A stretch of DNA of 64,000 nt from Bacillus sp. es.036 (lineage in GTDB: Bacteria; Bacillota; Bacilli; Bacillales; Guptibacillaceae), in the NCBI RefSeq assembly GCF_002563635.1, contig NZ_PDIZ01000003.1:186001-250000 (forward strand), in the 5' to 3' direction. Below are positions 18,142 through 56,945 of the stretch, piece after piece. Below the pieces are notes generated by a model that saw only the letters and a program-made list of their open reading frames with translations, had not been told where the DNA came from and searched no databases. How positions within the stretch are numbered: the first letter of the stretch is position 1; each line of letters opens with the position of its first letter. The position numbers and the translations under genes were made by a program.

Positions 18142-19119
18142 CTATTCTGATAGAGCTTTTTCTAGTGTTTGAATGTTTTGTTCCATTAAAGTGAAATAAG
18201 TTTCATCATTTTCGATATCTTCTTCTGTTAAGACAGAGAGGTTATGAATGCGAAGCGTCTCAAGGCCAAGCTCTTGTTGAACTGCTTTTGCTGGCTTTGG
18301 CGTAGCATTTTGTTCAAAAAGCATATACTTCAAATTGTAACTTTTAGCTGTTTCAATGATATCTTCTAACTGTTTTTGCGTAGGTTCTTGAGATGGTGAA
18401 AGGCCAGATACACTTAATTGTTTAAGTCCATAGCGACTTTCCCAGTAGCTATAGGCATCGTGCGAAATAAGGAACTCTTTTTTCGGTGCACTGTCAGCCA
18501 TTTCACGGAATTCTTTATCTAGAGCTAATAGCTCTTCTTCTAATGTTTCAAAATTAGACTCAAATGTTTTCTTATTGTCAGGATTAATTTCTATAAGTGC
18601 GTGTTTAATATTTTCGGCCTGCTGGATAGCGAGGGTTGGATCAATCCAAATGTGTGGATTCACATCGCCATGATCGTGATCGGCGTGCTCTTCATCAGCA
18701 TGTTCTTCATGCTCTCCTTCTTCATCAGCATGTTCCTCATGTTCTTCTATTGTTTCATCAAAGTGAATTCCTTCAGCGGATTCAAGCGTCATGACGTCTT
18801 CATTTTTCAAGGTATCTTTAGCTGCATCAGCAAATCCTTCCATGCCTGCTCCATTGTAGATAAATAAATCGGATTCAGCTAACTCTGTCATTGTTTTCGT
18901 CGTTGGCTCGAAACTATGTGCGTCACTGCCAGGAGGAATGATGGATTCAGCGGTTACATGTTCTCCGCCAATTCGTTCAGCAAAATATTCAAGAGGATAA
19001 AGTGTTGTATAAATACTTAGCTTTCCATCCGCATTTGTGTCTGGCTCTTGACCACAACCGACTAGGACAAGCGTAGATATAGATAGTAAGAATGCTACTG
19101 TTAAAAAGCGATTTTTCAT
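18142..19119 (-). CDS. znuA: Zinc ABC transporter substrate-binding lipoprotein ZnuA (orphan)
   Basis: Captures Zn2+ outside the membrane for a ZnuBC-type importer. A lipoprotein signal ends in LVGCGQ. The A-1 cluster fold is shown by LYPLEYFAERIGGEHV, PPGSDAHSFEPTTKT (first His ligand), a His/Asp/Glu-rich loop at about residues 125-153 (EEHADEEHADHDHGDVNPHIWIDP), FLISHDAYSYWESRYGL (third His) and FEQNATPKPA. 325 residues is normal. No permease or ATPase gene is adjacent, so it must use one encoded elsewhere. The promoter contains a Zur-type box. It is inserted between camS and the proline symporter, where B. subtilis has yerI. Confidence 0.93.
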   Translation of the reverse strand: MKNRFLTVAFLLSISTLVLVGCGQEPDTNADGKLSIYTTLYPLEYFAERIGGEHVTAESIIPPGSDAHSFEPTTKTMTELAESDLFIYNGAGMEGFADAAKDTLKNEDVMTLESAEGIHFDETIEEHEEHADEEGEHEEHADEEHADHDHGDVNPHIWIDPTLAIQQAENIKHALIEINPDNKKTFESNFETLEEELLALDKEFREMADSAPKKEFLISHDAYSYWESRYGLKQLSVSGLSPSQEPTQKQLEDIIETAKSYNLKYMLFEQNATPKPAKAVQQELGLETLRIHNLSVLTEEDIENDETYFTLMEQNIQTLEKALSE

Positions 19120-24935: not shown

Positions 24936-25883
24936 ATGAAACGTGCGAGACTAATCTATAATCCAACGTCCGGAAGAGAACAAGTGAAGAGGTCACTACC
25001 ATATATCCTCGAACGCCTTGAAAAAAATGGGTACGAGACGTCTGCCCATGCAACCACTTGTGAAGGCGATGCGACGGAAGCAGCGCGCATTGCCGTCGAG
25101 CGACGCTTTGATCTTGTCATTGCGGCAGGGGGAGATGGGACGATCTATGAAGTGATCAATGGCATTGCCGAGCAGCCATATCGGCCGAAGATGGGGATTA
25201 TTCCAGTTGGTACAACCAATGACTTTGCACGAGCGATTGGCGTTCCGCGCACAGTTGAAGGTGCGATGGACGTTCTGTGCAATGGTCTTGAAATGCCAAT
25301 TGATATCGGTCGAGTGAACGAGCATTACTTCATCAATATCGCAGGTGGCGGACGCCTGACTGAATTAACATATGAAGTGCCTAGTAAGCTTAAAACAATG
25401 CTTGGCCAGCTAGCTTACTATATGAAAGGCATTGAGATGCTTCCATCGATTCGCCCTGCAAGAACGAGGATTGAATACGACGGTAAGCTTTTTGAAGGTG
25501 AAATTATGCTTTTCCTTGTTTCAAACTCAAACTCCATCGGCGGATTTGAGAAGCTAGCCCCACATGCATCGTTGAATGATGGTCTGTTCGATCTAATGAT
25601 TTTAAAGAAGACGAACATCGCAGAATTCATTCGCATCGCAAGCAGTGCACTTCGCGGTGATCATATTAATGATCCAAATGTTGTGTATAAGAAAGCAAGC
25701 CACATTAAAGTAGAATCAGTTGATAAAATGCAGCTGAACCTGGACGGCGAGTACGGTGGCCCGCTTCCAGCCGAGTTTACGAACTTATACCGTCATATTA
25801 CAATGATCGTGCCGAAAGAAACGAGCGAAAAACATACAAATGAAGAAGAAGCCGCGCACAAGCGCGCCATTTCAGGTGAGTAG
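24936..25883 (+). CDS. dgkB: Diacylglycerol kinase DgkB (YerQ type)
   Basis: Soluble lipid kinase recycling diacylglycerol (from lipoteichoic acid synthesis) to phosphatidic acid. DAGK catalytic-domain marks: RLIYNPTSGREQVKRSLP at the N terminus, VIAAGGDGTIYEVINGI (nucleotide loop, about residues 64-81), PVGTTNDFARAIGVPR and the C-terminal DGEYGGPLPAEF. 315 residues, slightly longer than the B. subtilis protein through a charged C-terminal tail. The ribosome binding site is weak (AGGATGATGAAGG abuts the ATG). Position upstream of rlmCD agrees with B. subtilis yerQ-yerS. Confidence 0.94.
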   Translation: MKRARLIYNPTSGREQVKRSLPYILERLEKNGYETSAHATTCEGDATEAARIAVERRFDLVIAAGGDGTIYEVINGIAEQPYRPKMGIIPVGTTNDFARAIGVPRTVEGAMDVLCNGLEMPIDIGRVNEHYFINIAGGGRLTELTYEVPSKLKTMLGQLAYYMKGIEMLPSIRPARTRIEYDGKLFEGEIMLFLVSNSNSIGGFEKLAPHASLNDGLFDLMILKKTNIAEFIRIASSALRGDHINDPNVVYKKASHIKVESVDKMQLNLDGEYGGPLPAEFTNLYRHITMIVPKETSEKHTNEEEAAHKRAISGE

Positions 25884-25896
25884 AAATGAAGGAGAG

Positions 25897-25926
25897 AAGT
25901 CAGAGACTGAGAGCTCTGGCTTTTTC
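25897..25926 (+). terminator. Terminator after dgkB
   Basis: AAGTCAGAG-ACTGAGAG-CTCTGGCTT with one G-T pair, followed by TTTTC. Confidence 0.75.
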
Positions 25927-25970
25927 TGTTGTTCTCTGTGGATGAGGGGAAGCGGGTTGTGAATTCGGTT

Positions 25971-26060
25971 TTAGCCAATAAAAATAGATTTTGGCTAATA
26001 TATTTCAGATTTGGCCAATATATCGAGAGTTTAGCCAATATAATTCCATTTTGGCCAATA
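25971..26060. repeat. Tandem array of five TTRGCYAATA cores with an exact 20-base period
   Basis: Cores TTAGCCAATA, TTGGCTAATA, TTGGCCAATA, TTAGCCAATA and TTGGCCAATA begin at 25971, 25991, 26011, 26031 and 26051, each followed by ten bases of variable AT-rich sequence. The array lies between the dgkB terminator and the rlmCD promoter. A 20-base step is two helical turns, so all cores face the same side of the DNA. No gene is supported in this stretch. Confidence 0.9.
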
Positions 26061-26111
26061 AACCATGAAATCAAGCTCGCCTCACATGCAAAAAGCACCG
26101 CGCTGTTACAT

Positions 26112-26140
26112 TTCGCGATCCATTCACACTGTGGTACAAT
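26112..26140 (+). promoter_or_regulatory. Candidate rlmCD promoter
   Basis: TTCGCG, 17 bases, TACAAT at 26135-26140. The -10 overlaps the dyad GTACA-ATTTT-TGTAC (26134-26148), which may be regulatory. Confidence 0.5.
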
Positions 26141-26179
26141 TTTTGTACATGAAATCGAACGGAAAAGGACGGAAACCTA

Positions 26180-27550
26180 ATGAGTAATCAAGAAGTACCT
26201 GTAAAAAAGAATGACGTTGTCGAAGTAGAATTCAGAGACCTTTCCCATGACGGGGCAGGCGTCGCGAAAATAGATGGATACACGCTTTTCGTCCCGTATG
26301 GCATTCCCGGAGAAACCGCGAGCGTAAAAGTGATCAAGACGAAGAAAGGCTATGGCTTCGCTAAGCTGCTGGATGTCAAAGTGGAGAGCGAAGACCGCAA
26401 CACGCCGCCGTGTCCGATTTTCTATCAGTGTGGCGGCTGTCAAACACAGCACATTACGTATGATAGCCAGCTAAAATTCAAGCACAAGCAAGTTCAAGAC
26501 GTGATGGAGCGTATTGCGAAAATTGATGTACCTGTTCATCCTGTTCTTGGCATGGAAGACCCATGGCGCTACCGCAATAAAGCGCAGGTTCCAGTTGGTG
26601 AACAGAACGGTAAAATCGTTGCAGGCTTCTACCAACAGCGCAGTCACCAGATTATTGATATGGACCAGTGCCTCATTCAGGAGCAGGAGAACGATGAGGT
26701 TCTACACGTTGTGAAAGAAATTGCTGAGAAGTACGGCATCCGTGCATACGACGAGCGCTCACATCGCGGAACGCTTAGACACGTTGTTGCAAAATACGGA
26801 AAGCAAACGGATGACATTATGGTTGTGATCGTAACGAAAAACAAAGACTTACCAAATCGCAAGAACATCATCAAAGACATCACAGAGCAACTTCCGAAAG
26901 TGAAATCGATCGTTCAAAACGTGAATCCGAAGCGCACAAACGTGATTTTCGGTGACGAAACCCGCGTCCTATGGGGATCACCATACATTTACGACACGAT
27001 TGGTGACATAAAATTCGCCATCTCAGCTCGCTCATTCTATCAAGTAAACCCGGATCAAACGAAAGTGCTTTACGATCAGGCGCTTGAATACGCTGGTCTG
27101 ACTGGGAATGAAACGGTCATCGATGCTTATTGCGGTATCGGAACCATTTCACTTTTCCTTGCTCAAAAAGCGAAGCAGGTGTACGGAGTTGAAATCGTAC
27201 CAGAAGCGATTGAAGATGCGAAACGTAATGCTGAGCTAAACGGCATTACAAACGCAGAATTTGCGGTTGGTGAAGCAGAAAACGTCATCCCAGCCTGGAA
27301 AGAGCAGGGCATAAAGCCTGACGTCATCGTCGTTGATCCACCACGTAAAGGGTGTGACGAAGCGCTACTTCAAACGATTATTGATATGAAGCCTGAGAAA
27401 GTCGTTTATGTATCATGTAACCCGGCAACGCTAGCTCGGGATCTACGGATCTTAGAAGATGGTGGATTTGAAACGAAGGAAGTTCAGCCGGTTGATATGT
27501 TCCCGCATACTACTCACGTCGAGTGCGTAACCTGGCTAGAAAAGAAATAA
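26180..27550 (+). CDS. rlmCD: 23S rRNA (uracil-5)-methyltransferase RlmCD
   Basis: SAM-dependent RumA-type methyltransferase; the B. subtilis homologue methylates both U747 and U1939 of 23S rRNA. Domain order: N-terminal TRAM domain (about residues 8-66), a 4Fe-4S cluster site in [14 protein letters not shown] plus a further Cys near residue 160 (MDQCLIQ), then the Rossmann methyltransferase with [26 protein letters not shown] and the catalytic Cys in [14 protein letters not shown]. 456 residues. The ATG at 26180 has AAAAGGA about 10 bases upstream. Confidence 0.95.
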
Positions 27551-33547: not shown

Positions 33548-33715
33548 TTAGCAGTCTTTTCCATTAACGAAAGCAGCGCCAACGATGATAAGAAGAATGA
33601 ACAATACAACGATTAGCGCAAAGCCATTCCCGTAACGAGCGCCACCAACTTGGTTTCCGCAACCGCCGTATCCAGCGCCACCAACCTGGTTTCCACATCC
33701 GTAACCATAACTCAT
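33548..33715 (-). CDS. YjcZ family sporulation-type small membrane protein
   Basis: 55-residue protein: a Gly/Tyr/Cys-rich N-terminal half and a C-terminal hydrophobic helix [20 protein letters not shown], the layout of the YjcZ family of small spore-associated proteins. The unit [12 protein letters not shown] occurs twice (about residues 6-17 and 19-30), and the DNA is likewise duplicated, showing a recent internal duplication. ATG at 33713-33715 has AAAGGAGATGATTTC upstream; a more distal ATG six codons earlier would contain that site. Function unknown, expression expected in sporulation. Confidence 0.85.
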
Positions 33716-50256: not shown

Positions 50257-50294
50257 GTGCCTGTCACCACCCGGTTTAAGTCAAATTCTGTCGA
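50257..50294. repeat. Dispersed 38-base repeat, copy A
   Basis: Begins GTGCCTGTCACCACCCG and ends TGTCGA with 15 variable bases between; the same frame of 17 + 15 + 6 recurs at 56908-56945. Lies in the untranslated leader of lytS. Confidence 0.75.
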
Positions 50295-56907: not shown

Positions 56908-56945
56908 GTGCCTGTCACCACCCGAACTGGATCGAATGCTGTCGA
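56908..56945. repeat. Dispersed 38-base repeat, copy B
   Basis: GTGCCTGTCACCACCCG, 15 variable bases, TGTCGA: the same skeleton as copy A at 50257-50294. Lies upstream of the PH-domain gene on the opposite strand. Confidence 0.75.

Follow-up and report, generated by a model that had tools for sequence, protein, structure and literature searches.

The 64,000-nucleotide stretch of Bacillus sp. es.036 analysed here (the window) contains, between two genes, five short sites repeated at a constant interval, which raises the question of what kind of element such an array is and what maintains it. The array and its neighbours comprise the following features.

24936..25883, plus strand: flanking gene (ORF), a putative dagK-like lipid kinase
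25894..25925, plus strand: terminator-like stem after dagK (terminator scan; 12 pairs, T tail)
25970..26062, plus strand: full five-unit array including conserved edge bases (profile of units)
25971..25980, plus strand: core 1, TTAGCCAATA (pattern scan and shuffle control)
25991..26000, plus strand: core 2, TTGGCTAATA (pattern scan and shuffle control)
26011..26020, plus strand: core 3, TTGGCCAATA (pattern scan and shuffle control)
26031..26040, plus strand: core 4, TTAGCCAATA (pattern scan and shuffle control)
26051..26060, plus strand: core 5, TTGGCCAATA (pattern scan and shuffle control)
26128..26175, plus strand: conserved rlmD promoter/leader block (alignment of 14 genus genomes, read by eye)
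26180..27550, plus strand: flanking gene (ORF), a putative RlmD/TrmA-type RNA methyltransferase

A pattern of two cores separated by 10 unspecified bases, with up to 2 mismatches allowed, recovers 4 exact adjacent pairs in the window and one reverse-strand image with 2 mismatches, and occurs in 0 of 100 dinucleotide shuffles. TRF independently detects a repeat of period 20 with 4.6 copies at 25969-26060, confirming the preliminary description of five cores, all on the plus strand, at an exact 20-bp pitch. The edge bases of the array are a T ahead of core 1 and two A/T-type bases past core 5. Other tandem repeats found by TRF in the window lie at 33630-33701 (a 36-bp unit, two copies) and 18689-18745 (a 30-bp unit, 1.9 copies).

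The window array lies between the dagK-like gene with its terminator-like stem and the block upstream of rlmD. The terminator scan returned 4 such sites in the window against 1.9 expected, and the stem at 25894-25925 is kept in all 14 genomes sampled from the genus, including those that are array-less at that locus. The block upstream of rlmD, with an extended -10 element TGGTACAAT at 26132-26140 (promoter read by eye), is likewise conserved in 14 of 14 genus genomes, and the first 140 residues of RlmD have a match in all 15 genomes sampled from the family, where G014 represents a sister genus. Placement in a terminator-promoter gap, as first described, fits the window array but does not generalize: across 29 loci, each represented by a single array and with genes called from ORF length alone, 10 arrays are in convergent gaps, 14 in co-directional gaps, 2 in divergent gaps and 3 in gaps of undetermined type, making this one setting of several.

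The binding word is longer than the core. A profile of 302 unique units, drawn from all loci collected and including other genera, reads T-TTRGNYAATA-WAW followed by six free positions. Position 11 is A or T in 297 of the 302 units, position 12 is A in 273, position 13 is A or T in 277, and position 20 is T in 270; because these four positions are conserved as well, only about six (14-19) are free, rather than the ten variable bases originally reported between cores. The site is thus an asymmetric word of approximately 14 bp, TTTRGNYAATAWAW, with about six free bases per unit. From unit to unit, position 11 also tends to switch between A and T, in the order A-T-A-T-A (Fisher p=0.007).

The preliminary description also held that a self-complementary TTGGCCAA would allow binding in either direction, which the data do not support. 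The sites within an array are co-oriented and the word is asymmetric; an A at position 5 makes 32 of the 133 scored cores nonpalindromic, and no covariation is seen between positions 3 and 6 (Fisher p=0.37; p=0.65 where position 5 is C). Self-complementarity was rejected as the functional feature on this basis.

Pitch and copy number are both tightly distributed. When spacings of 14-26 bp were allowed in five genomes, 118 of 120 core-to-core distances came out at exactly 20 bp, one at 19 and one at 21; in other genera, the pitch ranges from 18 to 21 bp. The absence of drift is therefore true of the window array and slightly overstated for the family. Among the 107 arrays of the genus (119 unique arrays minus 12 from outside it, counting only arrays with at least 3 strong units), 85 have five units, 15 have three, 5 have four and 2 have six. 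When loci are grouped by their flanks, at least one member of 27 of the 29 has a five-unit array.

Over 27 loci, sequence conservation extends only about two bases past the array edges before it reaches background. The exception is a T-tract 6-9 bp upstream of the arrays, with T in 17-19 of the 27 loci, as terminators leave; beyond this tract and the edge bases, no shared flanks were found over the 27 loci. In 25 of 29 loci, the 50 bp to the left of the array contain more G than the 50 bp to its right (p=6.5e-6), a difference that is gone by 100 bp and that convergent contexts may partly account for.

Arrays of this type are widespread in the genome and in its relatives. When the genome of the window is searched for the two-core pattern, allowing up to 2 mismatches, there are 61 matches, against 0 for the reversed control; these merge to 21 places, with five units in 11, six in 1, three in 5 and two in 4. 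Two of the places, at C1 315001 and 2898793, are weak, and three cores are damaged in the five-unit array at 744378. The 21 places include convergent, co-directional and divergent gaps, with arrays in both orientations. Adjacent pairs with 1 mismatch are present in 13 of the 14 genus genomes, with controls at 0; none occur in the sister genus G014, and the exception within the genus, G006, gives 3 matches at 2 mismatches versus 4 in the reversed control, which is chance level. The refuting condition named in the preliminary description, absence of the pattern elsewhere in the genome and in relatives, is thus contradicted by the data. A single remnant core stands before rlmD in G006 (L187, L233), as if a partner protein had been lost.

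Across the order, triplets occur in 26 of 397 genomes and 7 of 135 genera, with controls at 0; in two of the seven genera (g29, g78) the evidence is weak, consisting of a single match of 1-2 mismatches per genome. Other genera, Sutcliffiella among them, carry the variant words TTGGATAATAAA, TTGGACAATAAA and CGGCTAATAGRAT. A scan of a named collection recovered 99 stretches, of which 84 were judged to belong to the same genus (under the names Pseudalkalibacillus, 'Alkalihalobacillus' and 'Bacillus' sp.), 9 to other Bacillaceae and 6 to organisms elsewhere; these last six (L065, L067, L090, L111, L140, L147) look like simple repeats and were left out. In Sutcliffiella-type genomes, GTCGAATGGC precedes 9 of 13 arrays (L197-L200, L207-L210, L218-L220, L103, L071) and ATAAA..TCGAC follows five of the 13 (four of these being one locus); the two are possibly terminal inverted repeats.

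The window array is a member of a lineage-specific family of chromosomal elements dispersed between genes. An exact triplet scan of viral contigs returned nothing, nor did blastn searches of phages and plasmids with the window array as sole query, and an origin from plasmids, phages or viruses was set aside on these searches. Origin-centred placement, as is seen for Noc and RacA sites, was also rejected: in G008, on the contig beginning with dnaA, 16 of 21 places are in the first half and none lie between 1.86 and 3.26 Mb, a distribution that is uneven but arm-asymmetric, and shared loci make the genomes non-independent. Judged by title and the start of the abstract, none of the papers that the literature searches brought up is about these arrays.

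The array upstream of rlmD is orthologous across the genus by alignment, allowing its gain, loss and divergence to be followed. Five units are present in G000, G013, G004, G007, G002 and G010; the array is damaged in G003 and G009 (losses of 6 and 5 bp, respectively), reduced to three units in G011 by an exact 40-bp loss, to two in G005 and G008, and to one core in G006, and it is absent from G001 and G012. Loss elsewhere is also mostly by whole units: relative to G000, G008 has gone from five units to one at C1 407,746, and in the genome of the window a single core is left where G008 has two.

Within surviving arrays, cores and filler diverge at very different rates. Between G000 and its orthologues at rlmD and mraZ, 1 of 235 bases differs at core positions 4 and 7-10, compared with 68 of 234 at filler positions 14-19; the count covers readable arrays only, and every pair in it shares G000. 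Orthologues were located through the neighbouring gene, giving six comparisons at rlmD and four at mraZ; arrays left out as unreadable were those of G011, G005, G009, G008 and G006 at rlmD and of G008, G009 and G011 at mraZ, and only the readable units of G003 and G005 were scored, with one G005 filler running into a deletion. Restricting the rlmD comparison to the three most distant genomes (G002, G003 and G010) gives 1 of 65 for the core versus 36 of 66 for the filler. Over 146 orthologous pairs at 18 loci, a set itself ascertained on arrays by pattern, change at core positions 4 and 7-10 is 0.5-2%, compared with 25% in the flanks. The disparity of 1 in 235 against 68 in 234 indicates purifying selection on the cores. 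The proposal that helical phase is under selection gains support from three sides: the near-invariant 20-bp pitch, length changes that mostly involve whole 20-bp units, and cores that are kept where the filler diverges.

Cooperative binding of a protein along one side of the helix would be expected to leave a constant pitch and orientation, a typical count of five, and cores that are conserved between filler that is free to vary. The array is probably a cooperative five-site docking platform for a putative DNA-binding protein, with an architectural or recombination-accessory role. A putative sequence-specific protein would bind all five sites cooperatively on nearly the same DNA face, each site being turned by about 34 degrees from the last because 20 bp corresponds to about 1.9 turns, and the five bound sites would form a nucleoprotein patch of roughly 90-100 bp. 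An architectural role could consist of chromosome anchoring or domain marking. The arrays ignore gene orientation, are found in convergent and co-directional gaps more often than in divergent ones and, in one region, separate exchangeable gene blocks. An architectural or accessory recombination platform is for these reasons a likelier role for the patch than that of a classical promoter operator. Against the docking platform, the arrays are dispensable, G006 having none by pattern search and decayed copies occurring at rlmD and mraZ, and the five-fold number could reflect founder inheritance instead of selection.

A second class of array bears on whether recombination is the primary function. 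In these, a 15-bp inverted repeat, TTAGAATNATTCTNG, abuts core 1 directly; we take its shape to be the 7-1-7 form of Fur/PerR-like sites. The module of inverted repeat and core (up to 2 mismatches) is found in 12 of the 15 family genomes, and no copy was found in G006. Arrays of the aspA region (L170, L241, L242, L267-L273) are of this class. Around aspA, fetched stretches from five species show co-oriented arrays separating operons, and the blocks so delimited are present or absent from one species to the next: sugar uptake and opuB are missing from G004, opuB is missing from G007, a mannosidase operon is present in G008 and G004, and lipoprotein genes lie on differing sides of a conserved block (the names aspA, opuB, sugar uptake, mannosidase and SDR are presumed). 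Paralogous small lipoprotein-like genes (L242:11486-14956 and relatives) vary in number and place between species beside arrays.

If the inverted repeat and the five-site array together formed the joint of mobile gene cassettes, with the array supplying accessory sites for a putative recombinase, such blockwise differences would be expected. The clearest case is an SDR gene: G007 reads F15, array, F51 and G011 reads F15, array, SDR, array, F51, with like outer flanks; the two G011 arrays differ at 3 of 90 bases, and G000 carries the same SDR block elsewhere, behind opuB and an array, with the same flank to the right of the array. Either an insertion of SDR in G011 or a deletion between two arrays in G007 would explain the difference. 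In G008 the palindrome and array are joined directly to the end of opuB, a junction at which G000 carries about 95 bp of other DNA (by eye); the distance from block end to module is 1 bp in G008 and 92 bp in G000. Modules also run one way in G000 (6/6), G008 (8/8), G004 (4/4) and G009 (5/5), but their orientation is mixed in G007 (5 and 1), G011 (1 and 8) and G013 (1 and 3), where copies are on different draft contigs.

A blind test of block ends found a modest excess near arrays: 39 of 101 lie within 100 bp of one, against a null mean of 25 and maximum of 40 in 301 draws, the pairs not being independent. Ten of the 101 ends come as close as 20 bp to an array in both genomes. Of the gaps of at least 100 bp in the aspA region, 21 of 47 hold an array in any case. 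Ordinary homologous recombination between repeats, or a deletion in G007, could produce the same joints, and the arrays at rlmD and mraZ are solitary, with no cassette. Attachment or recombination sites are for these reasons a rather unlikely account of the arrays as a whole. Its specific form, in which the inverted repeat is the crossover site, the array is the platform of a putative recombinase, the aspA, sugar uptake, opuB, mannosidase and SDR operons move as units and solitary arrays are empty joints, is quite unlikely. An ORF resembling a small serine recombinase by eye (L275:4674-5228; G000 C1 about 425,674) lies near the aspA-region arrays and is present in G000 only among the five stretches compared. 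The block joints nevertheless suggest a link to recombination or domain borders, and the arrays may mark where gene blocks are swapped.

The arrays might instead be operators through which an ordinary transcription factor controls a regulon comprising about 20 loci. Some do occupy promoter gaps, such as those before aspA, opuB and a presumed acyl-CoA dehydrogenase-like gene, whose start codon the array at C1 3378831 immediately precedes. On the ORF-length gene calls, however, 10 of the 29 loci are convergent gaps and only 2 divergent, and the neighbouring genes have no common function by eye, making this explanation unlikely.

The presence of arrays at mraZ raises the possibility of a relic or end of a non-autonomous, MITE-like transposable element with decaying transposase-binding sites. 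Eight related species have, between bshC and the host terminator, a terminator-like hairpin with an array or its remnant (nothing readable in G011), followed by the word GTGACAGGCAC in 8 of 8 and, before that word, by a TTCGACA block in 7 of 8 (not in G004); copies in G005, G008, G009 and G011 are decayed or collapsed. A short gap without an array occupies the site in G006, G003, G010, G012, G001 and the sister genus G014, and G002 has other DNA there. Because the more distant genomes lack the array, gain at mraZ is the simpler reading of the presence pattern and protein identities. Copies that have collapsed to 4, 3, 2 or 1 units would likewise suit a decaying element. For the G008 arrays at 988k and 3,265k and the array at 2,858k in the genome of the window, a search for empty sites gave no usable pair. 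Against a mobile relic, cores remain intact at loci where the filler has diverged by as much as 55% (36/66), no conserved ends exist beyond the array over 27 loci, and no target duplication is visible by eye at mraZ, so that we consider it quite unlikely.

An RNA-level element, in which the array would act as a transcript by folding into hairpins or titrating an RNA-binding protein, is very unlikely: the window array folds better than shuffled sequences (z of -3.4 and -3.5 on the two strands), as do arrays over 27 loci (mean z of -2.3 and -1.9, below -2 in 17 and 14 of the 27), but arrays occur in both orientations relative to genes, folding tends to be weaker the more cores carry A at position 5, a base with no compensating partner, and there is no pairing covariation within cores or between adjacent cores. 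RNA hairpins were accordingly rejected as foldable, yet lacking covariation and dependent on one base, and the window contains no Rfam match at the gathering threshold.

The arrays can be set beside several known systems. CRISPR arrays have long, near-identical repeats and unrelated longer spacers, and the present arrays, with a degenerate 14-bp word, about six free bases and a 20-bp pitch, are not of that kind. REP/BIME, RUP, BOX and MIRU elements resemble the arrays in being dispersed, short and intergenic, often at 3' ends beside terminators. Their units are palindromic, and REPs are tied to RAYT-type enzymes; the arrays differ in consisting of five direct asymmetric sites at a fixed pitch and usual number, and the palindromic unit of REP/BIME has no counterpart in a word that is asymmetric and whose positions 3 and 6 do not covary. 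All 15 family genomes carry Y1 transposase genes, including the array-less G006 and G014 (RAYTs and orthologues unsorted). Since no genome lacks them, and the GGTGCCTGTCACC repeat is found by itself as well as next to several arrays, a RAYT/REP origin was set aside. Each family genome has two to six Y1-type genes, those of 200-300 aa being RAYT-like by length only. Within the window, the REP-like word GTGACAGGCAC (GGTGCCTGTCACC on the plus strand) occurs on the minus strand at 50257-50267 and 56908-56918, with TGTCGA-type bases some 20-30 bases away, and GTGACAGGCAC also flanks the arrays L162, L173 and L177.

Closer in layout are the plasmid centromeres R1 parC, R388 stb and pSK41 cen (20-bp repeats), which are built of tandem direct repeats. 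They share with the arrays a few direct repeats, a regular pitch and cooperative binding, and the small, fixed number of repeats typical of ParR/StbA-type centromeres has its parallel in the five units of 85 of 107 arrays; the centromeres, which work with a cognate ribbon-helix-helix partition protein and a motor, are single plasmid loci, whereas the arrays have about 20 chromosomal copies. Integron attC, resolvase res and Xer cer-type sites are alike in placing an inverted repeat beside multisite DNA and, in the aspA region, in forming co-oriented joints of gene blocks. In integron-type systems, a dedicated recombinase acts on the site and cassettes are inserted there as units; what was observed here on that point is one clean SDR case and consistent operon differences, together with a breakpoint statistic that is modest and arrays in 21 of 47 gaps of the region. 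We know of no integron-like system in the Firmicutes; if the cassette reading were true, the arrays would constitute one, working in integron fashion with unrelated sites. As a selected yet dispensable element at about 20 chromosomal places, the array in any event offers a handle on a putative chromosome-binding protein, for which it could serve as bait.

Among binding-site repeats, those of RemA in Bacillus are similar in being repetitive, AT-rich direct sites in a relative, and they are described as periodic 7-bp protections at 3-bp intervals (a 10-bp pitch) with modest conservation (PMC8481266). The 20-bp pitch and strict word of the arrays do not fit a RemA-type operator. The TAACTGA direct repeats of Beggiatoaceae provide a parallel in their many intergenic sets of short repeats with a patchy distribution across lineages (PMC4679880). 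In layout, the arrays of this genus resemble multisite centromeres and accessory recombination sites, and we rate them as a variant of the known dispersed intergenic binding arrays.
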